Assembly (NCBI RefSeq): GCF_000420625.1
Contig: NZ_ATVH01000016.1
Location: 62,001 to 126,000, forward strand
Direction: 5' to 3'
Source of the DNA: Fodinicurvata sediminis DSM 21159
GTDB lineage: Bacteria > Pseudomonadota > Alphaproteobacteria > Kiloniellales > DSM-21159
DNA length: 64,000 bases
The notes under the pieces were generated by a model. That model was not told the origin of the DNA. It made no database searches and saw only the letters and a list, made by a program, of their open reading frames with translations. Shown one piece after another: positions 1 to 19,834 of the stretch. The stretch's first letter is position 1. Every line of letters begins with the position of its first letter. The translations under genes were made by a program, and so were the position numbers.

Positions 1-1507
1 CGCCGAAGAGGTGACGCATCTTCGCGATCTGGTTCAGCAGGGCATCGGTCGCGTTGAACATGAAGTCCGAATACATCAACTCGACGATAGGTTTCATGCC
101 CGCAGACGCCATGCCGGCTGCCATGTTGCAGAAGCCGTTCTCGTTGATCGGCGTGTTGATGACGCGATCCGGAAAACGGTCCATCAGGCCCTTGGTGGCA
201 CCCACCGTGCCGCCGCCCATGTTTGCGACATCCTCGCCCAGCACATAGATGCTTTCGTCTTCCGCCATGCGCTCGGCCACCACACGGGGCATGACATCGA
301 TCAGGCGCGCATCGTCCAGTTCATTGGCTGCATAGTCCTCCGGTTCCGCAAAGCGTGCACCCTCAAATTCGCTCAGGTCGCCGGTAATGTCATTGTCGAC
401 CGTTGCGGGATCGGGCCAGAGGTCGGGTTTGATGCGCGCGGAACTGCCGCGACCTTCGACGCAAGTCTCCACCGCGGCTTCGACTGCTTCCTGTACCAGG
501 CTTTCGATATGCTGGCTGTCGTCCTTGCCCAGGATCTTGCGCTTGTCCAACTCCGCAATGAGAAACTCCACGGGATCCTTCTTGCGCCAGGATTCTTCCT
601 CATCCTTGCTGCGGTAGCCGAAGGCGCTGCCCGGATAGGGCGCGCTCTGGTGGTAATAGCGATAGACATCGGCCTGGATGAGAACGGGGCCCTTCTTGTC
701 GGAGATTTCCTTTGCGGCCCATTCCGCAGCACGGTAGGCGGCAAGCGGGTTCATGCCGTCCAGCTTGATCGAGGGGATACCATGACCCTGGGCCCGGGTC
801 AGGAGCTCGCCCTCCCGCGTCGACTGTTCGATGGACATGGATACGGAATACTGGTTGTTCTCCATGAAGAAGATCATGGGCAGGTCGTAAAGGGCCGCGA
901 GGTTCAGGGCCTCGTGGGCAGTTCCCTGGTGGATCGCGCCGTCACCGAAAAAGGCCACTGTCAGGTCGCCGCTGTTTCGTACTTTCTCGGCCCAGGCGAT
1001 GCCGCAGCCAATGGCCATGCCGCTGGCGACGATAGCCTGGGTGCCGACAACGCCGACCGCGTCGTTGCGCAGGTGCATGGAGCCGCCACGGCCTCCGGAC
1101 CAACCTTCCTTTAGCCCCAGGATGTCGGCCAGAAGCGTGCGGGTGATTTCCCGCATGTCGTCAGGCAATTGTTTGGCCTTGGTCGGGTCGAAGTCCTTCG
1201 CCCACAGCGCGTGCAGCATCTTGGCCACGACCTGGTGGTGGGCGCGATGGGTCGCTGTGACCTTCGTCATGGGCGTCAGCGCCGCCAGACAGCCGGCGGT
1301 GGCGCCTTCCTGGCCGATGCTGGAATGGGCGGGGCCGTGAACAAGACCGCGCTTGTCGAGGTCGAGAATGGCCTCCTCGAAGCGGCGGGCACCCAGCAGC
1401 AGGGTGAGCGTGCGCTTGGCCTCTTCCGCCGTGAAAGCCTTCCAGTCCTTTTCCTCAAGGGAGAGTTGATACATCGGAGTCTGGTTGCGAATCTGCTGTG
1501 TCTTCAT
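1..1507 (-). CDS. 2-oxoacid dehydrogenase E1, alpha-beta fusion (3' part outside window)
   Basis: This is a thiamine diphosphate-dependent E1 that would decarboxylate a 2-oxoacid and pass the acyl group to a lipoyl E2. Reading down from ATG at 1507, about 500 codons stay open to the window edge. Residues about 1-350 form an alpha-type domain with the thiamine-binding pattern GDGAIHQG, ending in FMENNQYS. From about 385 a beta-type domain starts (LIDVMPRVVAERMAED, GEDVANMGGG), so both subunits lie in one chain. The C-terminal half of the beta part is missing only because the window ends. A GAGGGAAG ribosome site precedes the start. The gene lies 16 bases behind the lyase gene and is probably co-transcribed with it. 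No E2 or E3 gene is visible here. Substrate unknown. Confidence 0.85.
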   Translation of the reverse strand, partial: MKTQQIRNQTPMYQLSLEEKDWKAFTAEEAKRTLTLLLGARRFEEAILDLDKRGLVHGPAHSSIGQEGATAGCLAALTPMTKVTATHRAHHQVVAKMLHALWAKDFDPTKAKQLPDDMREITRTLLADILGLKEGWSGGRGGSMHLRNDAVGVVGTQAIVASGMAIGCGIAWAEKVRNSGDLTVAFFGDGAIHQGTAHEALNLAALYDLPMIFFMENNQYSVSMSIEQSTREGELLTRAQGHGIPSIKLDGMNPLAAYRAAEWAAKEISDKKGPVLIQADVYRYYHQSAPYPGSAFGYRSKDEEESWRKKDPVEFLIAELDKRKILGKDDSQHIESLVQEAVEAAVETCVEGRGSSARIKPDLWPDPATVDNDITGDLSEFEGARFAEPEDYAANELDDARLIDVMPRVVAERMAEDESIYVLGEDVANMGGGTVGATKGLMDRFPDRVINTPINENGFCNMAAGMASAGMKPIVELMYSDFMFNATDALLNQIAKMRHLFG

Positions 1508-1523
1508 GGGTTCGTTTCTTCCC

Positions 1524-2432
1524 TCAGCTTTTGTCGTTCTTTGTGGTTTTTGCCTTTTCCCTGTCCCCGTCTCGAGCAACTGCTTCTTCACGCTGTCGCA
1601 TCCCATCTACGCCTATGAAGTCACTGAACCAGTCGAAGGACGTCATGGCACGCTCCGCGTGATCTGGTGTAACTCGGTCGGCGTCCTTCATCTTCATGTA
1701 GAAATCCTGCATCGCGCGCGCCGCAGTGAAAAGCGATGTGAAAGGATATATAACCAGCACGATCCCGAGCGCGCGATAGGTCGCGCTTGTCTCGAAGGAA
1801 CCCGACCATCCGGGCACGCCGCCGCAGATCGCCAGAGGCCCCTTAACCAGGCGGGAGAGTTCCTGCAGTTCCTCGAATGAATAGTTTTCCGCGGCAAAGC
1901 CCAGGTCTGCCCCAGCGGCGAAGTAGCTGTTCAAGCGCTTGGCTGCCGCCTCCAGCCCTTCGCTGTCCTTGGCATCCGTGCGGGCAATGACCAGAAAATC
2001 CGTGGAGCGCCGCGCTTGACAGGCGGCACGAATCTTCGCTGACATCTCGTCGGTCGGGATCACCTTGCGCCCGGGCAACCCCCCGCAGCGTTTCGGGCTT
2101 CCCTGGTCTTCGATGTGCAAAGCCTGCACGCCCTGCTTTTCCAGGCGTCGGGTGGTTTCCCAGACCTGCGCCGGGCCACCATAGCCGGTATCCGCGTCAC
2201 AGATGACCGGGATATCGACGGCTGAAACGATCCGTCCGGCAATTTCCACCAGATCAAACAGCCCGGTGAAGCCCAGGTCCGGCAGGCCGAAGCTGCTGGC
2301 TTCCACGCCATAGCCAGATATGGAAACGGCCTCGAAGCCGGCTGTCTCGGCTATACGGGCGCTGACGCAGTCGTACACGCCCGGTGCAAGTACACAGTCT
2401 CCTTCCGCAAGCTTGCGCTTGAGATCGGTCAT
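1524..2432 (-). CDS. isocitrate lyase/PEP mutase family lyase
   Basis: A 302-residue TIM-barrel protein of the isocitrate lyase/PEP mutase superfamily. It carries the metal-site signature DADTGYGG, then IEDQ, then KRCG in the catalytic loop. The cysteine of KRCG is the acid/base residue in lyases of this family (methylisocitrate lyase, dimethylmalate lyase), so C-C bond cleavage of a 2-hydroxy or 2-methyl dicarboxylate is more likely than a phosphonate mutase reaction. I chose ATG at 2432 because GGGAG lies just upstream; an open frame extends further but lacks a ribosome site. The C-terminus is unusually charged (DGDREKAKTTKNDKS). It leads the minus-strand half of the divergent cluster, upstream of the E1. 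Exact substrate not determinable. Confidence 0.85.
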   Translation of the reverse strand: MTDLKRKLAEGDCVLAPGVYDCVSARIAETAGFEAVSISGYGVEASSFGLPDLGFTGLFDLVEIAGRIVSAVDIPVICDADTGYGGPAQVWETTRRLEKQGVQALHIEDQGSPKRCGGLPGRKVIPTDEMSAKIRAACQARRSTDFLVIARTDAKDSEGLEAAAKRLNSYFAAGADLGFAAENYSFEELQELSRLVKGPLAICGGVPGWSGSFETSATYRALGIVLVIYPFTSLFTAARAMQDFYMKMKDADRVTPDHAERAMTSFDWFSDFIGVDGMRQREEAVARDGDREKAKTTKNDKS

Positions 2433-2484
2433 TCTTTCAGTCTCCCATCCATCCTTTTTTTGGAGCAACCCTAGCCCATCAGCT

Positions 2485-2510
2485 TTTGGATCGATAGTCT
2501 GTATCTCAAA
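2485..2510. promoter_or_regulatory. imperfect palindrome between divergent catabolic operons
   Basis: TTTG (2485-2488) and GATA (2493-2496) face TATC (2502-2505) and CAAA (2507-2510). The left pair is separated by four bases and the right by one, so the symmetry is imperfect. It sits in the 178-base gap between the lyase and first SDR starts, where a shared regulator would bind. No regulator gene adjoins, so the assignment is inference. Confidence 0.3.
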
Positions 2511-2557
2511 CCGTTTTGCGGCGCTTGGTGACATGCACCGCGAGGCAAGCAGAACAA

Positions 2558-2587
2558 GGCCTGCCACGGTCTCGTGCAGGACAGGCC
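2558..2587 (+). promoter_or_regulatory. stem-loop in the leader of the SDR operon
   Basis: GGCCTG (2558-2563) pairs with CAGGCC (2582-2587), and CACG (2565-2568) with CGTG (2573-2576), giving ten base pairs with an internal bulge and a four-base loop. It ends 23 bases before the first SDR start, just upstream of the CAGGGAGACAGG ribosome-site region. It could affect translation or mRNA stability. It is not a terminator because no T-run follows. Confidence 0.4.
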
Positions 2588-2610
2588 ATCCAGGGAGACA
2601 GGAAACAGTC

Positions 2611-3372
2611 ATGACAAGTGGGGATCAGGACGCTTATGTCGTCGTGACCGGTGGCAGCCGGGGAATCGGGGCTGCGACTGCGCGTGTTGCAGCGCAGGCT
2701 GGATACAATCTGGCACTTACCTACAAGAGCAACCGGGCAGCCGCCGATGACGTCATCAAGGCTGTGGAGTCGGAAGGACGCCGTGCGGTGGCACAGTCCT
2801 TCGACATGGCCACAGGCAATGTCGAAGAGCTATTCCGTGCCTTCGATTCAGCTGGCCTGGGGCGTCTGCATGGTCTTGTGAACAATGCCGGCATCACGGG
2901 ACCCATCAAGCGGCTGACCGAGATCGACCAAGCCATGCTGGATGATGTCTTCCGAATCAACATCACCTCCCTGATGCTCTGCATGAAGGAGGCCGCCCTG
3001 CGCATGTCGACGGAGCAGGAGGGCATTGGGGGCACGATCGTCAATGTCTCTTCTCGTGCAGGCCAACTGGGCGGTGCAGGGGAGTGGATCCACTATGCCG
3101 CCAGCAAGGGCGCGGTGGACACCCTGACAGAGGGCGCGGCGAAGGAACTCGGCAGCGAGGGGATTCGCGTCAACGCGGTTTCCCCCGGTCTGATCGAAAC
3201 GGAGATTCACGCCGCAGCCGGTGCGCCAGACCGGGTGGAGCGGATGGTCAGCGGCGTTCCGCTGGGGCGGAGCGGCACGGCCGAGGAGGTGGCCGAGGTC
3301 ATTGTCTGGCTGCTTTCAGGCAAGAGCAGTTATGTCTCTGGCGCCAATATCTCGATCTCTGGTGGACGCTGA
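2611..3372 (+). CDS. short-chain dehydrogenase/reductase (first of three)
   Basis: A 253-residue classical SDR, cytoplasmic and NAD(P)-dependent, interconverting a hydroxyl and a carbonyl. It shows the cofactor motif GGSRGIG near the N-terminus, NNAG, a serine in NVSSRAG, the catalytic YAASK, and the C-terminal ISISGG typical of FabG-like members. ATG at 2611 is chosen over a longer open frame because of the GGGAGAC ribosome site and because the family starts just before the first beta strand. It opens a plus-strand operon in which two further SDRs, a hydroxyacyl dehydrogenase and a BKACE follow within 0-40 bases. Substrate unknown. The basic YKSN after the second strand hints at NADP, weakly. 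Confidence 0.88.
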   Translation: MTSGDQDAYVVVTGGSRGIGAATARVAAQAGYNLALTYKSNRAAADDVIKAVESEGRRAVAQSFDMATGNVEELFRAFDSAGLGRLHGLVNNAGITGPIKRLTEIDQAMLDDVFRINITSLMLCMKEAALRMSTEQEGIGGTIVNVSSRAGQLGGAGEWIHYAASKGAVDTLTEGAAKELGSEGIRVNAVSPGLIETEIHAAAGAPDRVERMVSGVPLGRSGTAEEVAEVIVWLLSGKSSYVSGANISISGGR

Positions 3373-3408
3373 GCCAGGAGGACATCAATCCGAGCTAGGG
3401 AGACAGCC

Positions 3409-4242
3409 TTGAGCGCATTGGAGCAGGAAAAGGAAAGAATTGCCATCGTCACCGGAGGTGCCAGTGGCATTGGTCTGGCGGCGGTCGAGCGCCTTCTGGC
3501 AGACGGCTACCGGGTCATCGGCGCGGACAGAAACGGGGAACAGCTGGCAAACTTGACCCAGGACAAGCCGGAGGTGGCCTGGCGGGAGCTCGATGTCAGT
3601 TCCCAAACTGAGATCGACGGCTTCAGGCAGGAGGTCGACAGCCGGTTCGGCTGTCCGCATGTGGTCGTGAATGCAGCCGGCATCATGCAGGACAACGTCC
3701 CGCTGGATGCCATGGATATGGAAGAGCACGATCGCATTTGGGATGTGAACTATCGCGGCAGTTTTCTCATGTGCCGGAACTTCGGCTTGGCCATGTCTGC
3801 TCTGGGGCGCGGCGTCCTGATCAATATTGCCTCCATTACCGCCCTGCGGCCCCTGCCGCTGTTTGCCTACGGTCCCGGGAAAGCCGCCGTGGTGTCCATG
3901 ACGGAAAGCCTGGCCGGACATCTGGGCCCATCCGGGGTGCGCGTGAATGCCGTTGCCCCCGGCTTCGTGCTGACGCCGCCCATCAAGGCCAAGATCGAAG
4001 CGGGCCTAAGGGATGCAGAGGATCTGTCCCGATCGGCGGCGCTTCAGCGCATGGTCACACCGGAGGAGATCGCCGAGGCCATTGCCTTTCTGGTCAGCGA
4101 CAGGGCCGCGGCGATCACCGGCATCACGCTGCCGGTGGATGCAGGCTGGCTGGCCGGCTCTTCCTGGGGCACTTATGGGGGCCTGCGTGTGTCCGAGCAG
4201 ACGCAGGACTCAAGAACAAGAAACCAAGAAGGGATGGAATAG
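3409..4242 (+). CDS. short-chain dehydrogenase/reductase (second of three)
   Basis: A 277-residue classical SDR with TGGASGIG, NAAG, the serine in NIASI and catalytic YGPGK. An acidic residue (GADRNG) ends the second strand, as in NAD-preferring members. It starts with TTG at 3409, supported by AGGGAGAC about six bases upstream and by the lack of an in-frame ATG near the expected N-terminus. The C-terminus carries about 20 extra polar residues beyond the usual end. Its stop TAG is followed directly by the ATG of the next SDR, so translation is probably coupled. It is distinct in sequence from its two SDR neighbours, not a recent duplicate. Substrate unknown. Confidence 0.87.
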   Translation: MSALEQEKERIAIVTGGASGIGLAAVERLLADGYRVIGADRNGEQLANLTQDKPEVAWRELDVSSQTEIDGFRQEVDSRFGCPHVVVNAAGIMQDNVPLDAMDMEEHDRIWDVNYRGSFLMCRNFGLAMSALGRGVLINIASITALRPLPLFAYGPGKAAVVSMTESLAGHLGPSGVRVNAVAPGFVLTPPIKAKIEAGLRDAEDLSRSAALQRMVTPEEIAEAIAFLVSDRAAAITGITLPVDAGWLAGSSWGTYGGLRVSEQTQDSRTRNQEGME

Positions 4243-5031
4243 ATGACACTTGCAAACCTACTGAGGCCTGATTCGGGTCTGAGGGTGCTTGTAACCGCCG
4301 GAGCCGGTGGCATCGGCCGACGTATCGTCGAGGGCTATCGCGAGGTTGGGGCCCGTATCGCTGTCTGCGATGTTTCCGATGATGCCCTCTCAGCCTTTCG
4401 CAGCGAAATACCCGATGCATTGGCCGTCAAATGCGACGTGGCGGATCGCGAAGCAGTGGCGGACATGGTTCGTCAAGCCCGCGAGGCGCTGGGTGGCTTC
4501 GACGTGGTGGTCAACAATGCCGGTATATCTGGCCCCACAGGTACGGTTGAGGATCTGGATCCCGTGGAGTGGGAGCGCACGCTCCGCACCGACCTGGATA
4601 GCCAGTTCTACATTGCCCACGAAACGGCCCGGGACCTGAAGGAAAGCCGCGGCAGCCTGATCAACATCGCCTCGGTGGCGGGGCGTCTGGGGTACGCCTA
4701 TCGCACGCCCTATGCCTCGGCCAAGTGGGGGATCGTCGGCTTCACCAAGAGCCTGGCCGCGGAAATGGGTCCGGACGGCGTGCGGGTGAACGCGATCCTG
4801 CCCGGTATTGTCGAGGGCGAGCGCATTCGCGGCGTGATCTCGGCCCGGGCTCAGGCGCTGGGGGTTTCCTACGAGGAGATGGAGAAGCGCTACCTGGCGA
4901 ATGTCTCCCTGCGCCGCATGGTCAGCGCGGATGATGTGGCCACCACCTGCCTGTTCCTGACATCGCCCGGCGGGGCGAACATCAGCGGCCAGGCGATCAG
5001 TGTCTGCGGCAATGTCGAGGTGTTGATGTGA
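4243..5031 (+). CDS. short-chain dehydrogenase/reductase (third of three)
   Basis: A 262-residue SDR with a slightly unusual cofactor motif TAGAGGIG in place of TGxxxGxG, then NNAG, NIASVAG and catalytic YASAK. The acidic CDVSD after strand two suggests NAD. The ATG directly abuts the stop of the preceding gene, and its end overlaps the next start by four bases (GTGA), so the three SDRs and the dehydrogenase behind them form one tightly coupled operon. Three SDRs in a row suggest sequential oxidations or epimerisation of a multi-hydroxylated substrate; that is inference. The exact reaction cannot be read from sequence. Confidence 0.87.
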   Translation: MTLANLLRPDSGLRVLVTAGAGGIGRRIVEGYREVGARIAVCDVSDDALSAFRSEIPDALAVKCDVADREAVADMVRQAREALGGFDVVVNNAGISGPTGTVEDLDPVEWERTLRTDLDSQFYIAHETARDLKESRGSLINIASVAGRLGYAYRTPYASAKWGIVGFTKSLAAEMGPDGVRVNAILPGIVEGERIRGVISARAQALGVSYEEMEKRYLANVSLRRMVSADDVATTCLFLTSPGGANISGQAISVCGNVEVLM

Positions 5032-5972
5032 GTATGGAGACGACCTCAGTCGCCCTGATCGGCGGCGGGCTGATCGGCTACAGCTGGGCGGCGATCTTTG
5101 CGCGCGCCGGCTGTCACGTCCGGATCTATGATGCCTCCGAAGAGCAACGCGAACGCCTGCCAGGCCTGCTGAAAGCGCAGCTCGAAGAGCTGGAGGCCGC
5201 CGGGCTGGCCGAGGATGCGGCGCGCGCCATCGCGCGCATCTCGGTCAGCGACAACATGGCAGAGGCCATCGAGGGCGCCGATCATATCCAGGAGAACGGA
5301 CCGGAGCGCCTGGAAGTCAAGCAGGAGCTCCTGAAAGAGGTGGACAGCCTGGCCGACGAAGCCGCCACCATCTCCAGCTCGACCTCGGCCCTGCTGCCCT
5401 CGGCCCTGTCCGAGCAGCTCGCTGGCCGGCACCGCTTCCTGGTGGCCCATCCGGTCAACCCGCCGCACCTGATACCCGTGGTGGAACTCTGTCCGGCCCC
5501 CTGGACGGAGGAGGCTGCCATGGAGAAGGTCCGGGTCTTGATGCAGGCGGTCGGCCAGAAGCCGCTGATGATGAAACGCGAGATCGATGGCTTCATCCTC
5601 AACCGCCTGCAGGGTGCGCTGTTGCGCGAGGCCTTTTCCCTGGTCGAGCAGGGCTATGCCCGGGTCGAGGATGTGGATGCCGCCGTTTCCGATGGGCTTG
5701 GCCTGCGCTGGTCCTTCATGGGACCCTTCGAGACCATCGACCTGAATGCGCCCGACGGACTGGCCGATTACGGCCGGCGCTATCGGGAGATGTACGCCAA
5801 TATGGCGGGCTCGGAGGCGAAACCCTGGTCGGACGCCCTGCTGGCGAAGGCCGAGGCCCAGCGGCGGGAGATCCTGCCCGCCGAGAAACTGCCCGCGCGC
5901 CAGCGCTGGCGCGATGCCCGCCTGCAGGCCCTGGCCCTGCACAAGCGGGACCAGGACGAGCGTGAGAAATAA
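5028..5972 (+). CDS. 3-hydroxyacyl-CoA dehydrogenase family, lambda-crystallin/L-gulonate 3-dehydrogenase type
   Basis: A 314-residue NAD-dependent beta-hydroxy acid dehydrogenase. The N-terminal Rossmann motif is GGGLIGYSWA, and the central signatures SSTSALLPS and VAHPVNPPHLIPVVEL are those of the lambda-crystallin (CRYL1)/L-gulonate 3-dehydrogenase branch, with the helical C-terminal domain (EIDGFILNRLQ, SDGLGLRWSFMGPFET). Free beta-hydroxy acids are the usual substrates of this branch. The GTG at 5028 overlaps the preceding stop; ATG at 5034 is an alternative start. It could make the beta-keto acid consumed by the BKACE encoded 28 bases downstream. Carnitine dehydrogenase is a relative, but the crystallin-type motifs make that less likely. 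Confidence 0.85.
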   Translation: MSMETTSVALIGGGLIGYSWAAIFARAGCHVRIYDASEEQRERLPGLLKAQLEELEAAGLAEDAARAIARISVSDNMAEAIEGADHIQENGPERLEVKQELLKEVDSLADEAATISSSTSALLPSALSEQLAGRHRFLVAHPVNPPHLIPVVELCPAPWTEEAAMEKVRVLMQAVGQKPLMMKREIDGFILNRLQGALLREAFSLVEQGYARVEDVDAAVSDGLGLRWSFMGPFETIDLNAPDGLADYGRRYREMYANMAGSEAKPWSDALLAKAEAQRREILPAEKLPARQRWRDARLQALALHKRDQDEREK

Positions 5973-6000
5973 CCAGATCAGTTTGGAGGACAACAAGCCC

Positions 6001-6939
6001 ATGGCCGCGACAAGCAAGAACAAAGTCATCATCACCTGTGCCGTGACCGGCGGCATCCATACGCCGTCCATGTCGCCGAATCTGCCGGTGACGCCGGACG
6101 AGATCGCCGAGCAGTCCATCGCGGCCGCCGAGGCCGGTGCTGCGATCCTGCACCTGCATGCGCGCGATCCGGAGACGGGACGTCCCACCCAGGACCCCGA
6201 GATGTTCGGGCGCTTCCTGCCGCGGATCAAACAGTCGAGCGATGCCGTGGTGAACATCACCACCGGCGGTAGCCCACACATGAGCGTCGACGAGCGCCTG
6301 CAACCGGCCAGGCACTACCAGCCCGAGGTGGCCTCGCTGAACATGGGCTCCATCAACTTCGGCCTCTTTCCGATGCTGGACCGCTACAAGGAGTTCAAGC
6401 ACGATTGGGAGCGCCAGCACCTGGAAAACAGCCGGGACCTGGTGTTCAAGAACACCTTTGCCGACATCGAGCACATCCTGGAAACCTGCCAGGCCAACGG
6501 CACGCGCTTCGAGTTCGAGTGCTACGACATTGGCCATCTCTACAACCTGGCGCACTTCCTGGACCGTGGCCTGGTGAAACCGCCGCTCTTCGTGCAGTCG
6601 GTCTTCGGCATCCTGGGCGGGATCAGTCCGCATCCGGAGGACATCATGCACATGCGGCGCACGGCCAACAGGCTGTTCGGCGACGACTATCGCTGGTCGG
6701 TCCTGGGCGCTGGCGCCAGCCAGATGCGGGTGGCCTCGATCGCCGCCTCCATGGGCGGCAACGTGCGCGTGGGCCTGGAGGATTCCCTCTGGGGGGCGCC
6801 CAAGAAACTGGCGGAAAACAATGCCGAACAGGTAAAGCGGGTGCGCCAGATCCTTGAGGGCCTCTCCCTGGAGATCGCGACACCCGAGGAGGCGCGGGAG
6901 ATGCTGTCCCTCAAGGGCGGCGACCAGGTCAACTTTTGA
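6001..6939 (+). CDS. beta-keto acid cleavage enzyme (BKACE, DUF849 family)
   Basis: BKACE enzymes are zinc-dependent and condense a beta-keto acid with acetyl-CoA to give acetoacetate and a CoA ester. The 312-residue protein has the metal-binding HLHARDPETGRP near residue 50, the SLNMGS strand, and the glutamate in FEFECYDIGHL that binds substrate or metal. ATG at 6001 follows a strong GGAGG at about 5985. It is the last gene of the plus-strand operon, directly behind a beta-hydroxy acid dehydrogenase, which fits oxidation followed by cleavage. Members differ widely in the side chain accepted (dehydrocarnitine, 3-keto-5-aminohexanoate, 3-ketoglutarate and others), and I cannot tell which applies here. 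Confidence 0.88.
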   Translation: MAATSKNKVIITCAVTGGIHTPSMSPNLPVTPDEIAEQSIAAAEAGAAILHLHARDPETGRPTQDPEMFGRFLPRIKQSSDAVVNITTGGSPHMSVDERLQPARHYQPEVASLNMGSINFGLFPMLDRYKEFKHDWERQHLENSRDLVFKNTFADIEHILETCQANGTRFEFECYDIGHLYNLAHFLDRGLVKPPLFVQSVFGILGGISPHPEDIMHMRRTANRLFGDDYRWSVLGAGASQMRVASIAASMGGNVRVGLEDSLWGAPKKLAENNAEQVKRVRQILEGLSLEIATPEEAREMLSLKGGDQVNF

Positions 6940-6992
6940 CCAGGCAGGCCGCTGCTGCTGGAGTGGGGCGTGGAATCTGAGCGGGAGTGCCG

Positions 6993-7592
6993 ATGACGAG
7001 CCTGGGCATTCGTTGCCATTGCGGCTGCCTGCAGGGGACTGTGCGTCCCCGCGGCTGCGTGAACAGATGCCTCTGCTACTGCGACGACTGCCAGGCCTTC
7101 GCCTGCTTCCTGGGGCGGCAGGAGGAGATGCTCGACCCCTACGGCGGTACGGAAATCCTCCATCTCTCCCAGGACGAGATGAGCCTTGCCGAGGGCAGGG
7201 GCCAACTGGCCTGCATGCGCCTGACGGAGAAGGGGACCCTGCGCTGGTACGCGACCTGCTGCAGCACCCCCATAGGCAACACGGTTCCCAACCGCGGCTT
7301 TCCGGTGGTCGGTCTTGTCCGCGCTTGCCTGGATGCTGATGAAGACATGCTGCAGAACACTGTCGGTCCCATCCGCATGCAGGTGTTTACGAAATACGCG
7401 CTGCAAGCGCCTGCACCGAAGGTTAGAGGCCTGTTCCGTGGTGCGATATGTGTTCTCCGTATCATCGGGAGGGGTTGGCTGAAATCTGCGCATCGCCACA
7501 GCCCCTTCTTCGATGCACACACGGGCAAACCCGCTGTCGTGCCGAGAGTCCTGAGCCAGGAAGAACGCGCGCGTGTGAAGGTCCTTGAATGA
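6993..7592 (+). CDS. DUF6151 family cysteine-rich protein
   Basis: A 199-residue protein with cysteine pairs in CHCG near residue 8, a CLCYCDDCQAF stretch, and CCSTPIGN near residue 90. This arrangement resembles the zinc-binding GFA (glutathione-dependent formaldehyde-activating) fold and matches what I know as DUF6151. Function unknown; the fold suggests a structural zinc and possibly a small-molecule site. ATG at 6993 is preferred over GTG at 6987 because GGGAG lies five bases upstream. It lies 53 bases downstream of the BKACE on the same strand and may be read through from that operon, but there is no functional link in the sequence. Confidence 0.65.
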   Translation: MTSLGIRCHCGCLQGTVRPRGCVNRCLCYCDDCQAFACFLGRQEEMLDPYGGTEILHLSQDEMSLAEGRGQLACMRLTEKGTLRWYATCCSTPIGNTVPNRGFPVVGLVRACLDADEDMLQNTVGPIRMQVFTKYALQAPAPKVRGLFRGAICVLRIIGRGWLKSAHRHSPFFDAHTGKPAVVPRVLSQEERARVKVLE

Positions 7593-7705
7593 GACTGGTT
7601 CGGCTGCAGGCAGTTGTAGAGGTAAATGAGGGCCGTTCTTTCGTTTGCAATCGGTTTATTCAGGGCTTTATCACTCCTGAAGCGGAGGCAAAGGAGTAGG
7701 GTTTC

Positions 7706-8116
7706 ATGGCGAAGACCGAGAAAAGATGGGTGCGCATCAGGAAACTGACGCGTGAGGAGAAAGAGGATATGGCGTGCCGGTGCGAACGCTTTCTCGAAGA
7801 GTTTCTGCGTCCCACCTTTATTCCGGAAATCCGGCCGAGCGAATGGAACTATCCAGTGGATCTATTCGGGAAGTGGCACGGTCACCGCTACAGCTTCATT
7901 GTGCGGTACCGTTCAGGCTTTCCCGATACCGACGGAGAAGAGTTCGATGCCCCCTTCGCGCGTCTCGATCACGTCGAGGAGAAGCCGGACAGGGTCCTGT
8001 TCGACGTGATGTGGAAGCGGCATACGGGACAGTGGTGGCCCATCAAGCCGGAACTGGAGCTCGAGGATGCCCTGCAGGAAATCAGGGAGAACGAGGTCCT
8101 GCATCCGCCCATGTGA
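7706..8116 (+). CDS. uncharacterised 136-residue protein, first gene of SWIM module
   Basis: I do not recognise this family. It is a soluble protein without signal peptide or membrane segment, rich in charged and aromatic residues (EWNYPVDLFGKWHGHRY, GQWWPIKPELELEDAL). The WHGHRYSF and WWP patches look like conserved core or binding elements. The start is ATG at 7706 with AAAGGAG about nine bases upstream. Its stop lies 13 bases before the SWIM zinc-finger gene, so the two are likely co-transcribed. It could be a small partner protein for the SWIM gene product; that is inference from position only. Confidence 0.6.
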   Translation: MAKTEKRWVRIRKLTREEKEDMACRCERFLEEFLRPTFIPEIRPSEWNYPVDLFGKWHGHRYSFIVRYRSGFPDTDGEEFDAPFARLDHVEEKPDRVLFDVMWKRHTGQWWPIKPELELEDALQEIRENEVLHPPM

Positions 8117-8129
8117 GGCATGATTGACG

Positions 8130-9821
8130 ATGTACTGTGACACCGAGCTCCTGAAAGAACTGGCTGGTCCGAAGGTTTTTGCACGCGGCGAAGAGTATTT
8201 CCGGAACGGCTGCGTCGTATTGCTGTCCCTTGAGGAGACTCAGATCTGGGCAAGGGTGTACGGCAGCGAAGTCTACGAAACGCTTTTGGATAACGACGAG
8301 GACGGCCTCGACGGGGAGTGCAGCTGTCCCGCCTTCGAGGACTGGGGTTTCTGCAAGCACATGGTCGCCGTGGGGCTGGCCGCCAATGCAGCGCCAGAGA
8401 CGCCTGCCGGGCCGTCGGGGCTCAGTGATATCCGGGAAATCAGGAGATCCCTGCAGGACTGCAGTCATGAGGCTCTGGTCAAGCTGGTGGCGGACTTCGC
8501 CGAGTACGATGTGGGCTTCTTTCGCATGCTGCGGCGAAGGCTGCAGTTGATGCCGAGTGAGGAGCCGGAGGCCGAGGTGCGTTTGCGAAGCCATATTGAA
8601 GTATCTCTCCATCTGCTCCACGCGATGGAGGACCGCCACGACGACACCGGATATCGCGAGCTCTGCGAGCTGATATCAAGCCTGGAGGATTGGGTTGCAC
8701 AGGGACAGGCGACTGCTGCCCTGCGCCTGTCCGGCCATCTGATCGATCGCCTGCTGGAGGAGATGGATGACTATGCCTGGGCTTCGGGCGATTGCGGGGC
8801 GCTGATAAAAGAGGCGGCTCGGGTAAACCTCATGGCCTGTGAGCTCGCTGCTCCCGATCCCGTGGAACTGGCTTCGGACATCTTCGGGCGCGAGATGAAG
8901 GGGGCCTATTTCGGTTCCGCCTGTGGCGCGGCCTTCTATGTAGAGGTACTGGGCAAGGCAGGTCTCGCAGAATACAGGCGCTTGGCGGAGGAAGCCTGGC
9001 AAAAGACTCCGGCCAAGGCACCCGTTGATCGAAGTTGGTTTCAAATGCCGGATAGGCAGGACGGGCGTCAGCTATTCCGCCTGATCGCGATTAAGGATTA
9101 CTTAGGCGAGCTGGACGGTGATGTCGATGCGCGCATTGCTGCACGCAAGCGAGACCTTTCGTCTATCCGGAAGTACCAGGAGCTCGTGCGTTTCTGCCTG
9201 GAGCAGGGGCGCCCGGCAGAGGCCTTGGGTTATCTTGAGGAAGGCCTTTGGGTTTTTCCCGAAGCCACAAGCCATCGTAATCAGGCCCTTGATTTTTGTG
9301 ATCTGCTGGAAAGGCTGGGACAGAAGGCAAGGGGCATTGACCTGTTGCTGGAGGCCTTCAGCTCTGAACCGGACGAACAGATCTATGGCCGGCTTGCCCA
9401 TCTGGGCGGAGAGGCGGCCGCCGAAAAGGCCGTCGCCGACCTGCGTGCCCGGCTCAGGGAGGAACAGGGATTCAAGCGCAGCCGAATGGCGGATGTCCTG
9501 CTACGTATCCTGATGGGGCGGCAGGATTTCGAGCAGGCCTGGACGGTGGCGGTTGACAACAAGCTTCCTGCAGCAAGCCTTATGAAGCTAGCCAAGGCCA
9601 GCGAGGCGGCCTATCCAGACAGGGCGCGTGCGGTCTATGAGCAGGAGGTCGAGCGCCTTGTGAACTCGGGCGGCAACGAGAATTATCGCAATGCCTGTGG
9701 GTTGATTTCCAGACTCGAAAAGCTGCAGAGCCCGAATTACCACAAGGAGTACGTCGAAGGACTTGTGCAGCGTTATCGGCGCAAAAGGAACTTCATGAAG
9801 CTGCTGGAGCAGAGAGCATGA
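8130..9821 (+). CDS. SWIM zinc-finger protein with helical-repeat C-terminus
   Basis: A 563-residue protein. Residues about 60-80 contain the SWIM finger CSCPAFEDWGFCKHM (CxC then CxH), a predicted DNA- or protein-binding zinc site. The region from about 120 to the end is largely helical with TPR-like repeat units (pairs such as GYLEEGLWVFPEATSHRNQA), ending in the KLLEQRA helix. An N-terminal segment (ELAGPKVFARGEEYFRNG) is typical of bacterial SWIM proteins. ATG at 8130 or TTG at 8124 could start it; GAGG at 8115-8118 does not clearly decide. The stop overlaps the next gene by four bases. Function of such proteins is not established; a nucleic-acid-binding scaffold is plausible. Confidence 0.75.
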   Translation: MYCDTELLKELAGPKVFARGEEYFRNGCVVLLSLEETQIWARVYGSEVYETLLDNDEDGLDGECSCPAFEDWGFCKHMVAVGLAANAAPETPAGPSGLSDIREIRRSLQDCSHEALVKLVADFAEYDVGFFRMLRRRLQLMPSEEPEAEVRLRSHIEVSLHLLHAMEDRHDDTGYRELCELISSLEDWVAQGQATAALRLSGHLIDRLLEEMDDYAWASGDCGALIKEAARVNLMACELAAPDPVELASDIFGREMKGAYFGSACGAAFYVEVLGKAGLAEYRRLAEEAWQKTPAKAPVDRSWFQMPDRQDGRQLFRLIAIKDYLGELDGDVDARIAARKRDLSSIRKYQELVRFCLEQGRPAEALGYLEEGLWVFPEATSHRNQALDFCDLLERLGQKARGIDLLLEAFSSEPDEQIYGRLAHLGGEAAAEKAVADLRARLREEQGFKRSRMADVLLRILMGRQDFEQAWTVAVDNKLPAASLMKLAKASEAAYPDRARAVYEQEVERLVNSGGNENYRNACGLISRLEKLQSPNYHKEYVEGLVQRYRRKRNFMKLLEQRA

Positions 9822-10405
9822 AGAAGGCCGTCATCGACGAGCAGAACCGCCACCTGATTCGCCAGCAGGAGCTTTTCCGCAAGGCGGCGGATGTCGTGGT
9901 GCGCGCTTGGAAGCCTTTCGAAGAGGTGCAGGCCATCGCCGTCGTCGGCTCGGTGGCCGGGCCGCTGTGGAAAGAGGTTCCGCGCTTTCGCGAATTCAGG
10001 CGTGCGCGCATCGAGGTTTGGCACGAATGCGGCGACTTGGATATTGCGCTCTGGCTGGACTCCCAGGATCGGCTCGAAGATTTGCGCCGGGCCAAGGACC
10101 GTTGCTTGCGGGAGGCCAATGAGTCCGGCGAGGACGTTTCCACGCCTGGCAATCTGGTGGACACCTTCCTGTTCGAACCGGAGAGTGGGCGATACCTGGG
10201 GCGTCTCTGTCGCTATAACGAGTGTCCCAAAGGCAAGGCGGACTGCGAGGTGCCGGGATGTGGCCGCATTCCCTTCAACAAGAAAATCCCGGAGTTCGTT
10301 CCCTATGCCGACCTGCTGAACCAGGCCCGGACCAACCTGCTCTATGAACGGACCCAAGGCGTACTCCGCTCAGCACTGGAGCTGCCACCCACGCCACAAT
10401 CGTGA
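9818..10405 (+). CDS. nucleotidyltransferase-fold protein with four-cysteine cluster
   Basis: A 195-residue protein. VVGSVAG near residue 43 followed by CGDLDIALWL near residue 71 resembles the G-S ... D-x-D signature of the polymerase-beta nucleotidyltransferase superfamily, though the gap between the two elements (about 28 residues) is longer than in minimal members. VDTFLFEP could supply the third acidic residue. A C-x4-C-x6-C-x4-C array (around CRYNECPKGKADC) near residue 130 suggests a bound zinc. It overlaps the SWIM gene by ATGA, so the products are probably made together. No HEPN or other known antitoxin partner is present. Catalytic activity is unproven. Confidence 0.6.
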   Translation: MKKAVIDEQNRHLIRQQELFRKAADVVVRAWKPFEEVQAIAVVGSVAGPLWKEVPRFREFRRARIEVWHECGDLDIALWLDSQDRLEDLRRAKDRCLREANESGEDVSTPGNLVDTFLFEPESGRYLGRLCRYNECPKGKADCEVPGCGRIPFNKKIPEFVPYADLLNQARTNLLYERTQGVLRSALELPPTPQS

Positions 10406-10454
10406 ATTCCATTTCGGCGAGAGGGCATAACGTTTCTCTTTGGCGTGCCGTGGA

Positions 10455-12914
10455 TCAGGTTTTGGATATGTGGCGCAGGAGCGTTTCCGCCAGGCTATTT
10501 CGGGTATAGGGTTTACGCAGCACCTCGAAGCCCTGTGCCCTGTCCGGCGACAGGGCCGCGCCCGGATCGTGGCCGGTCGTGATGATGACGGGCAGCCCGG
10601 GGTGTGTTCTGCGCAGTTCCTTGGCGAGTTGAAGGCCAGAGCGGCTTCCGGGCATGACCATATCCGTCAGGACCAAGTCAACGGTCAGGCCCTTTTCCAG
10701 TTGCTGGAGGGCATCCTGGGCATTTTCCGCGGTCGTGGTTGTGAAGCCGATCTGCTCGAGCATGAGGCGGGTTTGTTCGCGCACAAGTTCATTGTCTTCG
10801 ACCAGCAGAAGCCTTTCACCATTTGCACCGGCGCGCTGCGGCTGGGCCTGCGTGACCCCCTGTCCCTCCGAAGCCATCGGGAAAACAAGGTCGATTGTGG
10901 TGCCCTGGTCGAGTATTGATGTCAGGCGCACGTCGCCGCCCAACTGGCGCATGAATCCCTGAACCATGGAGAGACCCAGGCCCGAGCCCTTGCCCACGTC
11001 TTTTGTGGTGAAAAAGGGTTCGAAGATTCGGTCGAGGATATCCGGCTCAATACCTGTCCCATCATCTTGTAAGCGCAGGCCGACATAATCGCCCGGAGAG
11101 AGTTCATGGAGGTCTCGGGCCGGCGTCAGCTTTTGTGGATCAATGCGGAAGGTGCGCAAGCGCAGGCACCCGCCTTCCGGCATGGCATCGCGCGCATTGG
11201 CGGCGAGATTCAGGAGTGTAGTCGTCAACTGGGCGGAATCCGCCTTGCAGGCCGGACAGTCCCGCTCCGTGTCAATCTCGAGACGATTGATCTCGCCCAG
11301 GGAGGAATGCAGCAAGGGTTTGACCTCCTGCAGAAAGGCGTTGAGGTCGATGGAGCGTGTGACAAGGGCCTGGCGGCGCGAGTAGGCGAGAAGCTGATTG
11401 GTCAGACCACCCGCGCGCTCAGCGGCGTACATGGCGTTTGATGCAAGTTTGTACTGACCAGAGGTTTTATCCAGATCATCAAGCAAGGCTTCCAGGCTGC
11501 CGACAATAACGGTCAGCAGGTTGTTGAAGTCGTGGGCCAGGCCTCCGGTCAGGCTTTCGATCGTCTCCAGGCGCACGCGCTCGGCCCGCTCTCGTTCCAA
11601 AGCCGAACGGTGGCTGATGTCGCGAATGATGGTCAGTGCGCGTTTTTCCCCGTTCTTCAGGCTTACGAGGTTCGATGTGATTTCGGTTTCGAGGCTGTCT
11701 CCATCCTTTGTCCGGAAAGTCAGTTCACCAAGGTAGAAGCCGTGCTTGGCACGTTCGTTCAGGGCTGTTCTGGCGCTCTGGTCCTGGGGGAAGAAAAACG
11801 CTTCACGGCTTCTTCCAATAACCTCGTCCGGCGTATAACCCATCATTTCGCATGCGCGTCGATTTGCGGCCAGAACGATCTCGTCATCACCGACGGCCCC
11901 GCTGGTGGACAGATAGACAGCTCCATCGCCCATGTTGTCGAAAAGGAATTGGTAGAGTGATTCCTGTTCGGCCTTTTCCTCGTGGGCCTTGCCGATTTCC
12001 GATTGTCGCGTTTCCACGGCATGGAGGATGCTGTGGAAACGCGAAGCCAGGCTGTGCGCAAACGAGGCATGACTGCGTTCGATGGGCACCAGCTTGTTGG
12101 GTACGAGGATGAGGATGCCGCGCAGCTGTGCGTTATGGCCGCGAAGTGCGATAGCATGGGCCTTGTCTGCCCAGTGATCATCTGTCGTCAGTCCATCGAG
12201 GGGGACCGGCACCACATCATTGCTGCCGCTGCGCAGGGTCTGAGCCGCCAGCGGTCGCAAGGCGCGTGCCGTGGTATCGTCCAGGCGCAAACTGCAAATC
12301 TCACCTTCCGGATTGGAGGTATGCGCGTCGATGGAATAGAGGGCAGCTGCGGCGCAATCCATTTCGTTTGCTTCGAGGATTTCATGCAGGCGGCTGGCCA
12401 GTTCCCGGAAGCTTGTGTCATTCGCCAAGCCAGCGTCCAGGCCGTTTATCGCTTGCCGTCGCTTGGCGATCACGTCGCCGGTTCGCTCCGTGGCAATGGA
12501 GACAACCCCGAGCGTTTCACCGTCCGCGGTCAGGGCTGGGCTGTAGGAGAAATCAAAATAGCACTCTTCCGGCACCCCTTTCTTCGCGAGAGGCAGCAGG
12601 CGGCTTGAATATGTCAGTTCCTGTTGCGTCGTGCGAACCTTCTCGAAGGCCGGCCCGAGAAAAGCCCAGATCTCCTGCCAGCTTTCATGAGCGGGCATGC
12701 CGAACGACTGAGGATGCTTGTCTCCGAGTATCGGGTTGTAGGCGTCATTGTAGACTTGGACGAGATCCTTGCCCCATGCGGTATAGACCGGGAAGCCCGA
12801 AGCCATGGCCATGCGGATCATGGCCTTCATGTCGGGATGCCAGGTTTCGGCGCATCCAAGAGACGTTTGATGCCAGGGAAAAGTTTCGAGCAACGTTCTG
12901 TTGCTTCCGTCCAT
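10455..12914 (-). CDS. hybrid sensor histidine kinase with C-terminal receiver
   Basis: An 819-residue soluble hybrid kinase. In order: an N-terminal PAS-like domain (to about residue 150), a GAF-like domain (about 165-315), a second PAS domain (about 320-440, FLFDNMGDG), a HisKA helix with phosphoacceptor His461 in [11 protein letters not shown], a HATPase domain (N-box [15 protein letters not shown]-boxes DDGTGIEP and [10 protein letters not shown]), and a receiver (VEDNELV, phosphoacceptor Asp751 in TDMVMPG). No transmembrane segment is visible, so it senses a cytoplasmic signal. ATG at 12914 is set by AGGAGG five bases upstream; the frame is open further up without support. No DNA-binding response regulator lies nearby, so it is an orphan whose output partner is elsewhere. 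Confidence 0.88.
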
Positions 12915-13216
12915 CTTGCCTCCTGAATCTCGGTCTACAGACAACTTTTGGCCGAAAGCCCAGTCTATTTTACTTTCAGCCGTGAGGAAATAGAGGAAAT
13001 CTGTCCTTAGAATAAGGTATTTTCGTAAATTTCTTGTCGAAATTGCCGAGCTTCCCGGAGGCGTCCCCCGGAATGCCAGCTGCGGGCTTGTACGCACAAG
13101 CCTTGCTGAAGAATACTTTCCTGGATTGTTTGCCATTCTCCGCGTGATGATTAGCATTCCGGAATGGGAACGCCTGGCCATCACTGGGCCGTTCATCTTG
13201 AACAAAGGAAACAGCC
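12915..13216. promoter_or_regulatory. divergent intergenic region, kinase / alcohol dehydrogenase
   Basis: This 302-base gap has no gene I can support. It is more AT-rich than its surroundings near 12960-13040. It contains a perfect seven-base-pair hairpin (GGCTTGT 13085-13091, ACAAGCC 13096-13102) and a 12-base palindrome CATTCCGGAATG at 13155-13166; CGGAATG also occurs at 13070-13076. These may be operator elements for either flanking gene. No convincing -35/-10 pair could be fixed by eye. Confidence 0.4.
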
Positions 13217-14341
13217 ATGAAGACACGCGCCGCGGTTTTGAATGAATCGCCTGTCGAACGCCCCTATGCCGAAACACGCCCCCTGAGGATCGAGGAGGTG
13301 GAGCTTGATGAACCGGGACACGAGGAGGTGCGTGTTCGTATTCGTGCTGCAGGCCTCTGTCATTCAGACCTCTCGGTGATCAATGGTGACCGGCCGCGCC
13401 CGGTGCCCATGGCGCTGGGTCATGAAGCGGCCGGCGAGGTCGAGGCGGTGGGCCCTGGCGTGAAGGATCTGGAGCCGGGTGACCGCGTGGTGATGATCTT
13501 CATGCCGTCCTGCGGGCACTGCATGCCTTGTGCAGAGGGACGTCCGGCACTCTGCGAACCCGGAGCGGAAGCCAACGGTGCGGGAACCCTGTTGGGTGGC
13601 GCCATGCGCATTCATCGCAATGGTCAGGACGTCTATCACCATGTGGGCGTCTCGGCTTTTGCCGAGCGGGCCGTGATCTCGCGCCATTCCATGGTGAAGA
13701 TCGACCGTGAGCTGCCGTTCGACCATGCTGCGCTGTTTGGCTGTGCCGTGCTGACCGGCGTCGGAGCCGTGGTGAACACCGCGGCCGTCAAGGCGGGCCA
13801 GACCGTGGCCGTCATCGGTCTTGGCGGCGTCGGCCTGGCGGCCATTCTGGGGGCACAGGCAGCCGGTGCTGCACGCATCGTTGCCGTGGATCTGTTGCAG
13901 GAAAAGCGCGACTTCGCCCGCCAGCTGGGCGCAACGCATGCTATCGACCCGCGCGATGAAGAAGCCGTGGCGCAGGTCAAGGAATGGACCAACGGTGGGG
14001 TCGATGCTGCCGTGGAATTGGCAGGATCGGTTCCGGCCCTGGACTTTGCTTATCGCATCACGCGGCGCGGCGGCACCACGGTGACCGGCGGGCTGGCGAA
14101 TCCCGAGAAGAAGCTGGAGATCCAGCAAGTTTCACTGGTGGCCGAGGAGCGCACGTTGAAGGGCAGCTACATCGGCAGCTGCATTCCCTCACGCGACATC
14201 CCGCGCTATATTGAGCTGTTCCGGGCCGGGCGCCTGCCGGTGGACCGCCTGATGACCGGCCGCGGTACGCTGGAAGACATAAACGAGGCCTTCGACCGCC
14301 TGGCCGACGGCACCGCCGTGCGCCACGTCATTACGCCGTAG
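13217..14341 (+). CDS. zinc-dependent alcohol dehydrogenase (MDR family)
   Basis: A 374-residue medium-chain, NAD(H)-dependent alcohol dehydrogenase. The catalytic zinc site shows CHSD near residue 48 and GHEAAGEVEAVG; the structural zinc loop has four cysteines (CGHCMPCAEGRPALC). The Rossmann motif is GLGGVGLAAILGA. The pattern resembles class III-like and aryl/long-chain alcohol dehydrogenases (GSYIGSCIPSRDIPRYIELFRAGRLPVDRL), but glutathione-dependent formaldehyde activity cannot be assumed. The start has AAAGGAAA upstream. It is convergent with the acyl-CoA dehydrogenase 27 bases away and has no obvious operon partner. Substrate unknown. Confidence 0.88.
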   Translation: MKTRAAVLNESPVERPYAETRPLRIEEVELDEPGHEEVRVRIRAAGLCHSDLSVINGDRPRPVPMALGHEAAGEVEAVGPGVKDLEPGDRVVMIFMPSCGHCMPCAEGRPALCEPGAEANGAGTLLGGAMRIHRNGQDVYHHVGVSAFAERAVISRHSMVKIDRELPFDHAALFGCAVLTGVGAVVNTAAVKAGQTVAVIGLGGVGLAAILGAQAAGAARIVAVDLLQEKRDFARQLGATHAIDPRDEEAVAQVKEWTNGGVDAAVELAGSVPALDFAYRITRRGGTTVTGGLANPEKKLEIQQVSLVAEERTLKGSYIGSCIPSRDIPRYIELFRAGRLPVDRLMTGRGTLEDINEAFDRLADGTAVRHVITP

Positions 14342-14368
14342 CGACAAGTATGAGACAGGCCCCGTTCC

Positions 14369-15544
14369 TCAGAAGGAGCGGGGCAGGCCCAGGACCTTCT
14401 CCGCCACATGGGAGAGGATGAGGTTGGTGGAGATCGGCGCGATCTGATAGAGGCGCGTCTCCCGGAACTTGCGCTCCACGTCGTATTCCTCGGCAAAGCC
14501 GAAGCCGCCGTGCGTCTGCAGGCAGGTATCCGCTGCGTGCCACGAGGCCTCCGAGGCCAACAGCTTGGCCATATTAGCCTCGGCTCCGCAGGATTCTCCG
14601 CGGTCATACATGTCTGCAGCGTGCTTCACGGCCAGGTGCGCGGCATGCAGTTCCACATGATTGCGGGCAATGGGGAACTGTACGCCCTGGTTCTGTCCGA
14701 TGGGCCGGCCGAAGACCTTGCGCTCGTTGGCGTAGTTGGTGGATTTCTCGATGAACCAGCGGCAGTCGCCGATGCATTCCGAGGCGATCAGGATCCGCTC
14801 GGCGTTCATGCCGTCCAGGATATAGCGGAAGCCCTTGTGCTCCTCGCCGATGAGGGCGTTGGCTGGAATCTCCAGGTCGTCGAAGAAGATCTCCGTCGTC
14901 GAGTGGTTGATCATGGTGTTGATGGGCTGGATGCGCAGCTTGTCGGCCGGGGCCTCGCGCATGTCGACCAGGAAGACCGACAGGCCGTCGGTGCGCTTTT
15001 CCAATGAGCCTTTCGGCGCCGTGCGCGCCAGCAGGATCATCAGGTCCGAGTGTTCTGCCCGGCTGGTCCAGACCTTCTGGCCGCGGATGATGTAGCTGTC
15101 GCCCTTGCGTTCGGCCGTGGTCGAGATCGACAGCGTGTCGGTGCCCGCCCCGGGTTCGGTTACACCGAAGGCTTGCAGGCGCAACTCGCCCGAGGCGATG
15201 CCAGGCAGATAGGCCTGTTTCTGTTCCTCGCTGCCGTGCCGCAGCAGGGTGCCCATGGTGTACATCTGGGCGTGACAGGCGGCACCATTGGCGCCGCAGG
15301 CATGCACTTCCTCCAGGATCGTGGCGGCTATCGAGAGCGGCAGGCCGCTGCCGCCGTATTCCTCGGGGATGAGCGAGGCGAGCAGGCCGGCTTCGGCCAT
15401 CGCGTTCACGAATTCGGTCGGGTAGGCGCGTTCGCGATCGAGCTTGCGCCAGTACTCGTTGGGGAAGCGGGCACAAAGGGCGCGTACTGTGTCGCGAATG
15501 GCTTCGATCTCGGCGTTTTCGGGCGCTGTCGTGGTCTCGTTCAT
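14369..15544 (-). CDS. acyl-CoA dehydrogenase
   Basis: A 391-residue FAD-dependent acyl-CoA dehydrogenase that would oxidise an acyl-CoA to the enoyl-CoA and pass electrons to ETF. It is full length, with the N-terminal helical domain, the flavin loop FGVTEPGAGTD, a WTSRAEHSD strand, and the C-terminal helices with QTHGGFGFAEEYDVERKFRE. ATG at 15544 is chosen; the same frame stays open much further upstream but only as a shadow of the divergent LysR gene. The LysR gene begins 132 bases away on the other strand and a LysR-type palindrome lies between, so regulation by that neighbour is likely. Chain-length specificity is not apparent. Confidence 0.9.
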   Translation of the reverse strand: MNETTTAPENAEIEAIRDTVRALCARFPNEYWRKLDRERAYPTEFVNAMAEAGLLASLIPEEYGGSGLPLSIAATILEEVHACGANGAACHAQMYTMGTLLRHGSEEQKQAYLPGIASGELRLQAFGVTEPGAGTDTLSISTTAERKGDSYIIRGQKVWTSRAEHSDLMILLARTAPKGSLEKRTDGLSVFLVDMREAPADKLRIQPINTMINHSTTEIFFDDLEIPANALIGEEHKGFRYILDGMNAERILIASECIGDCRWFIEKSTNYANERKVFGRPIGQNQGVQFPIARNHVELHAAHLAVKHAADMYDRGESCGAEANMAKLLASEASWHAADTCLQTHGGFGFAEEYDVERKFRETRLYQIAPISTNLILSHVAEKVLGLPRSF

Positions 15545-15629
15545 CTCGGGGAAAGCCCTGTTGTTCTCACTGATCCGTATAACCGATGCGTGGTGAAAGA
15601 ACTTGGGATGGTCCATGCTATAATGCAAA

Positions 15630-15646
15630 GATAATATATAGCTATC
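15630..15646. promoter_or_regulatory. candidate LysR-box (T-N11-A)
   Basis: GATA (15630-15633) and TATC (15643-15646) are inverted around nine AT-rich bases, giving the T-N11-A geometry of LysR-type operators (T15632, A15644). It lies in the 132-base gap between the divergent acyl-CoA dehydrogenase and LysR genes, 31 bases before the LysR start. The location fits auto-regulation and control of the dehydrogenase. It is unproven. Confidence 0.4.
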
Positions 15647-15676
15647 CTCAATAAGAAGATGATATGGCTGAGCGCC

Positions 15677-16621
15677 ATGGATATTCGCCACCTGCGCTAT
15701 TTTGTAACCATCGCCGAAGCGGGGTCTCTTTCGAAAGCGGCGGAACACCTGCATGTCGCCCAGCCGGCACTCAGCCAGCATGTGCGCAACATGGAGCGGG
15801 ACCTGCGCACCGAGTTGCTTTTCCGGTCTTCGCGGGGCGTCCAGTTGACGGAAGCTGGCCAGCGATTGTTGCAGCATGCGCGCCATTTGATTGATCAATT
15901 CGATCAACTGGAAGAGGTCGTGCGTGCAGAGGATGTCGAGCCCTCGGGAGAGGTGCGCTTCGGTGTTCCAGGCACGGTCAGCCAGATGCTCAGCGCCCGT
16001 TTGATTCAGGAGGCGTCGCGACGCTATCCGGCGATACGCCTGCGCATAGCGGAGGCCATGAGCGGTTTCATCTTCGACTGGTTGCGTGAAGACAAGATCG
16101 ATGTGGCGGTTCTCTATCGCGGCGTGCACAGCCGCGGCATTCGTTTGAAGCAGGTCCTGTCCGAAGAACTGAGATTGTTTGGGCCGGCGGATGCGCGGCT
16201 TGGCAATGGAAAACCCGACCAGGAGTCTGTGGACTTCTCGGAAGCCATAGGGTTGCCCCTGGCCATACCGAGCCGAGGACATGGCTTGCGTGACCTGCTG
16301 GATGATGTGGCATCGCAGCACTGTGGCCGAACATTCGAAGCCCATACCGAAATCGATTCCTATGCACCGATTAAAACCTTGGTCGAGGAGGGGCTGGCCT
16401 TCTCCATACTGCCGGCCATGGCGATAAAGGCGGAGTGCCAGCAAGGACGTCTGGTTTCCTGGTCCATCACCAATCCGGAGCTTCGCAGGAACATCTTTAT
16501 TTCAGTGCCCGCAGACCGGCCCATATCCGCGGCCACACTTGCCATCGAGAAGTTGTGCTATGAGCTTCTGCATCAGCTTGTGCAGGAAGGGACATGGGAG
16601 GGGCGGCTGGAAGAAGATTGA
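15677..16621 (+). CDS. LysR-family transcriptional regulator
   Basis: A 314-residue regulator with the N-terminal winged helix-turn-helix (DIRHLRYFVTIAEAGS, then SKAAEHLHVAQPALSQHV) and a periplasmic-binding-like effector domain from about residue 90. ATG at 15677 is chosen because nearly all family members begin at this point (M-D-I-R-H-L); ATG at 15659 would add six residues. It is divergent from an acyl-CoA dehydrogenase, its most probable target. The N-terminal recognition helix resembles Nac/CynR-type members, but the inducer cannot be deduced. It ends four bases before the convergent ExoD-family gene. Confidence 0.88.
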   Translation: MDIRHLRYFVTIAEAGSLSKAAEHLHVAQPALSQHVRNMERDLRTELLFRSSRGVQLTEAGQRLLQHARHLIDQFDQLEEVVRAEDVEPSGEVRFGVPGTVSQMLSARLIQEASRRYPAIRLRIAEAMSGFIFDWLREDKIDVAVLYRGVHSRGIRLKQVLSEELRLFGPADARLGNGKPDQESVDFSEAIGLPLAIPSRGHGLRDLLDDVASQHCGRTFEAHTEIDSYAPIKTLVEEGLAFSILPAMAIKAECQQGRLVSWSITNPELRRNIFISVPADRPISAATLAIEKLCYELLHQLVQEGTWEGRLEED

Positions 16622-16625
16622 CGGC

Positions 16626-19831: not shown

Positions 19832-19834
19832 TCC

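Follow-up and report, generated by a model that had tools for sequence, protein, structure and literature searches.

A three-gene accessory module was found in the window, a stretch of 64,000 nucleotides from a contig of Fodinicurvata sediminis DSM 21159. It encodes a DUF3024 protein, a SWIM zinc-finger protein with helical repeats, and a nucleotidyltransferase (NTase) of a family that is absent from the four libraries searched (Pfam, NCBIfam, PADLOC, and PHROGs) and is now defined. We tentatively regard it as an accessory conflict or stress module with a self-sufficient NTase as its catalytic part, most likely directed against phage infection; this is our leading reading, held with considerable doubt. 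The three-gene order, the empty site in a same-genus genome, the rarity of the genes, the intact NTase motif, and the survival of the NTase alone support this explanation, while the match of the SWIM protein to the PADLOC candidate PDC-S62 and the occurrence of the NTase in a prophage cargo slot give a conflict role indirect support. The absence of a defence island among the matches listed, the position of the module in Reyranella, and the SWIM loci that lack the NTase speak against it. No description of the DUF3024–SWIM–NTase combination, of the NTase family, or of the cargo slot was found in the open-access literature searched. The module supplies a testable unit around PDC-S62, a published but unvalidated defence candidate, and the alphaproteobacterial prophage slot offers a place to mine new conflict genes.

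Gene content and distribution of the module

All three module genes proposed in the initial annotation were open reading frames on the forward strand: the DUF3024 gene (7706–8116, 136 aa), the gene of the SWIM protein (8130–9821, 563 aa), and the NTase gene (9818–10405, 195 aa). Their close packing was as described there, with a gap of 13 bases between the DUF3024 gene and the ATG of the SWIM ORF at 8130, and with the NTase start codon at 9818 overlapping the SWIM stop codon as ATGA. The same gene order was present in four other alphaproteobacterial loci (L005, L006, L007, and L012), where the DUF3024 and SWIM genes were joined by ATGA or TGATG and the SWIM and NTase genes were 3–5 bases apart; this recurrence argues that the packing is not due to chance. 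At eight loci, the joints with the SWIM gene were short or overlapping, which suggests joint expression.

The module is accessory, being gained and lost and, in the reading that we favour, sorted horizontally. In blastn, positions 1–6939 and 10470–20000 of the window matched the collinear genome G006, the only same-genus genome searched, at about 86% identity, and nothing matched between them; 35 bp stood in G006 in place of the block at 6940–10469. Precisely this 3.5-kb block was missing from G006; it holds the module and a DUF6151 gene (PF19648, Pfam E-value 8e-26; 6987–7592, forward strand), which was found in none of the other module loci. An integrated island was considered and rejected: no tRNA gene was present in the window, terminal repeats of at least 8 bp, whether direct or inverted, were absent from the block ends, and the G+C content and GC3 of the block were ordinary. 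A hybrid sensor kinase was encoded downstream of the block (10455–13277). Its true start is probably nearer to 12990 or later, because residues 1–95 of its longest form had no match in the collinear region of G006.

Among 385 alphaproteobacterial genomes, the NTase (E ≤ 0.001) was detected in five and was full-length in three, DUF3024 in three, and the SWIM protein in four; each module gene thus had a prevalence of about 1%, and all three occurred together only in the genome of the window. Vertical conservation with housekeeping neighbours, which according to the initial annotation would make a defence role unlikely, was contradicted by this rarity and by the absence of the block from G006. 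Decayed copies were frequent. In Sinorhizobium meliloti Ak57, residues 1–64 of DUF3024 were fused to residues 517–559 of the SWIM protein in an ORF of 109 aa, which ended four bases before an intact NTase gene. The lone NTases of Sinorhizobium showed a dN of 0.051 and a dS of 0.215, and this dN/dS of about 0.24 indicates that the NTase was kept after the SWIM gene had been lost. The NTase gene of G438 and the SWIM gene of G076 were frameshifted, as were copies in L012 and L014, two metagenome bins in which assembly errors are possible.

The composition of the module was variable. L011 and L016 had SWIM and NTase genes but no DUF3024, as did L010, where the contig ends; DUF3024 and SWIM genes occurred without the NTase in L008, L017, and L034 and also in L013, where the contig likewise ends. 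Roughly half of the SWIM loci had no NTase, a proportion that is not a population frequency since the loci were gathered by similarity to the SWIM protein of the window, and the NTase was also found alone. According to the initial annotation, an NTase that is often absent would mean that the module does not function as a unit, and this was borne out in part: SWIM and NTase genes do recur together, yet the association of the three genes is not obligate. An FRP-like gene (PF18032) followed the SWIM gene in L017 (9627–9980), L034 (11671–12009), and L054 (8912–9253); it stands where the NTase would, which implies that the third position of the module is exchangeable.

The usual neighbours of the cellular loci were guaA, rsmB, guaB, and an aldo/keto reductase gene. 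The module or its remnant was located just downstream of guaA (GMP synthase) in six loci (L007, L009, L015, L034, L021, and L022) and 1.8 kb from it in L013, loci that belong to several lineages of Alphaproteobacteria. In Reyranella the position of the module was stable and looks vertically inherited. Type II toxin–antitoxin genes, which are common in general, were present near the copies of L005, L006, L021, L022, and L034. The guaA neighbourhood and the stable place in Reyranella would suit an operon for stress response or nucleic-acid maintenance that belongs to the guaA region, descends vertically with frequent loss, and has no conflict role. We consider such an operon unlikely in view of the prevalence of about 1%, the clean empty site within the genus, the broken or truncated copies, and the NTase copies carried by prophages.

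The NTase family and its prophage relatives

The NTase of the window had no match of its own in Pfam, NCBIfam, PADLOC, or PHROGs. Eight of 13 family members, the window protein not among them, weakly matched the Polbeta family PF18765 below its cut-off (best value 0.0015). In all 25 NTases compared, cellular and viral, GS44-45 and D73-x-D75 were invariant and position 115 was D or E; the 27 residues separating GS from DxD included many invariant positions (W51, P55-R56-F57, W68-H69-E70). Four cysteines after DxD (C131, C136, C143, and C148), invariant in the same 25 proteins, probably form a zinc site.

An AlphaFold model of the NTase had a pLDDT of 77, with values of only 50–60 for the GS–DxD insert and the cysteine segment. 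Its best solved match was 2rff (Z 8.8, rmsd 3.7 Å over 103 aligned residues), followed by AadA (Z 7.5) and an MNT antitoxin (Z 6.7), all of them NTases; AadA, AAD(9), and ANT were among the best matches with Z values of 6.4–7.5. Foldseek alone gave no E-value below 0.001 with this model, and a search of PDB sequences with the NTase profile gave no true match. The call of an NTase-like protein made in the initial annotation agrees with both motif and fold, which support a divergent NTase of the polymerase-beta type with predicted catalytic activity.

A profile search of viral contigs recovered 21 NTase relatives, representing 12 different proteins that were 49–54% identical and retained every catalytic and cysteine residue; they were located in alphaproteobacterial prophages. 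Relatives of DUF3024 or of the SWIM protein were not found in the viral contigs searched. In cultured phages, no relatives of the window NTase, of the L061-type NTase, or of the window DUF3024 were found, and the SWIM match covered only 12%. Two clades were resolved in the phylogenetic tree of the NTases, a well-supported one of viral copies (100/98) and one of cellular module copies (94/93); the lone copies of G375 and Microvirga stood apart from both. PHROGs placed the viral NTase in a cluster of head and tail genes: it was preceded by portal, head decoration, major head protein, and phrog_6367 and followed by tail terminator, tail protein, tail assembly chaperone, and tape measure.

The slot (L061–L161), flanked by phrog_6367 and by the tail terminator phrog_4204, was surveyed in 80 loci retrieved by phrog_6367, a neck gene; the 67 loci with both flanks were counted, leaving aside the 21 loci selected by the NTase (L112 and L068 are one contig). 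It contained other cargo, consisting of unrelated low-GC genes, in 62 of the 67 loci, the NTase in one, and nothing in four; the flanking genes of the empty slots were 12–14 bp apart, and the other cargo measured 0.4–2.8 kb. The G+C content of the slot was below that of the flanks in 62 of 62 cases (means of 0.55 and 0.67, respectively), and the main cargo ORF, picked mechanically, was on either strand. Pfam matches of the cargo included HipA (three proteins), a PvuRts1I-like protein with SRA, pPIWI-associated nucleases, GNAT, and a methyltransferase; a sulfate permease, EamA transporters, and a decarboxylase were also encoded. Judging from its G+C content, strand use, and occupants, the slot is an accessory-gene site with cargo that is in part of the conflict type, and the NTase is among its rarer occupants. 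Since metabolic genes share the slot, cargo status does not by itself imply defence. In having a fixed place in the phage and exchangeable cargo that includes defence genes, the slot resembles the cargo (moron) hotspots of P2/P4 prophages (PMC9122126); it differs from them in belonging to another phage group, in its location between phrog_6367 and the tail terminator, and in the frequency of metabolic cargo.

Single-gene cargo status in prophages, together with the likeness to aminoglycoside NTases in core and active-site layout, would also be expected of a small-molecule NTase of the aminoglycoside or lincosamide type, that is, a solo resistance or lysogenic-conversion enzyme standing beside DUF3024 and SWIM genes by happenstance. 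We judge this improbable. Identity to AadA is about 10% and restricted to the NTase core; AadA and ANT carry a C-terminal helical domain, whereas the 195-aa window protein is too short for a second domain and is partnered by SWIM and DUF3024 proteins. The additional cysteine cluster, the conserved 27-residue insert, and the SWIM joints suggestive of joint expression also argue against such an enzyme.

The NTase shares a polymerase-beta fold, the GS and DxD signature, and a small size within a short operon with MNT antitoxins (MntA). In MntA of the HEPN-MNT (type VII) toxin–antitoxin system, the motif is GSx10DxD (PMC7641770), that is, 10 residues separate GS from DxD instead of 27; the window family also differs in its four-cysteine segment, in the lack of a HEPN partner, and in its ability to live alone. 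A HEPN toxin (RX4HXY) beside the NTase was not detected by Pfam, its neighbours being the SWIM/DUF6880 and DUF3024 proteins, in line with the initial annotation, which saw neither HEPN nor a known effector in the SWIM and NTase unit. A toxin–antitoxin arrangement following HEPN-MNT or AbiE/MenT logic, with the NTase as either the antitoxin or the toxin and the SWIM or DUF3024 protein as its counterpart, could draw on the fold near MNT antitoxins and AadA, on the ATGA-coupled operon, and on the type II toxin–antitoxin genes near several copies, but it is highly improbable given the missing HEPN domain, the GS-x27-DxD motif, and the occurrence of SWIM with DUF3024 without the NTase and of the NTase, under purifying selection, without both, from which it follows that neither side needs the other to be harmless.

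The DUF3024 and SWIM proteins and the proposed mechanism

The small protein that had been taken as unrecognised was identified as DUF3024 (PF11225, E-value 7e-17). Copies 46–56% identical to it were encoded directly 5' of the SWIM gene in L004/L034, L005–L008, L012, L013, and L017. The confidence of its structural model was only 63, and a comparison with solved structures gave no match better than an E-value of 0.9.

The SWIM motif CxCx(n)CxH was complete in the second protein (C64-x-C66-x8-C75-x-H77), with a PF04434 match above the cut-off of this family, and its C64, C66, C75, and H77 were invariant across 13 SWIM relatives. The helical part matched DUF6880 (4e-9) and TPR_14; the SWIM zinc finger with helical repeats read from the sequence at the outset was thus recovered by family models. 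The PADLOC model of PDC-S62 matched the window protein with an E-value of 2.8e-36, the best stretch covering residues 3–208 only, and its Paraburkholderia relative in L024 over the full length. PDCs are guilt-by-embedding candidates that mostly await validation (PMC12988326); PDC-S62 was not named in the open-access literature searched. A SWIM and helical-repeat protein is common to PDC-S62 and to the module. PADLOC lists PDC-S62 as a phage-defence candidate consisting of one gene, whereas the window protein is coupled to DUF3024 and to the NTase or, in relatives, to an FRP-like gene.

The defence embedding that characterizes PDC-S62 was not seen for the module, which sits outside a defence island judging from the matches listed for 136 neighbours. 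In a PADLOC scan of these neighbours of the module and its relatives, no defence system was found among the best 25 of 56 families; RecQ and one Ser/Thr kinase (L054) were the only PADLOC-like proteins among the matches listed. A DpdF match in L014 (5e-238) was rejected as an ordinary full-length RecQ, since the DpdF models of PADLOC match RecQ helicases. The undescribed SWIM and NTase unit suggested in the initial annotation stands.

In the conflict or stress module that we favour, the NTase would be active and, under stress or in genetic conflict, would attach a nucleotide to its target, which may be a protein, an RNA, or a small molecule. The DUF3024 and SWIM/helical-repeat proteins may act as a sensor or scaffold, recruiting or gating the NTase, and the benefit would be anti-phage or stress-related. 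A more specific version is possible but doubtful: in a new anti-phage system based on the NTase, DUF3024 and SWIM proteins would sense phage nucleic acid and license the NTase, which has a probable zinc site and a long insert at the active site and would modify a target of the host or the phage, and the solo NTase of prophages would serve superinfection exclusion.

DUF3024 genes were also observed in other surroundings. DUF3024 was named by a single paper of the open-access literature searched, which lists a gene of phage 933W whose number falls between those of a RuvC-like gene and cI, close to that of a gene resembling Ser/Thr kinases (PMC10789677). In L036 (8873–10420), a DUF3024 gene was followed by the gene of another partner, a protein of 380 aa (MSEYQYYEFQAIDRPL...) that had no match in Pfam, PADLOC, or PHROGs. 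A DUF3024 gene of L035 (9543–9926) was joined by ATGA to an IS66-like transposase gene, whose 3' end it overlapped; an ATPase was encoded in the same region, as was a phosphoesterase-like protein with a match to PDC-S60 of PADLOC.
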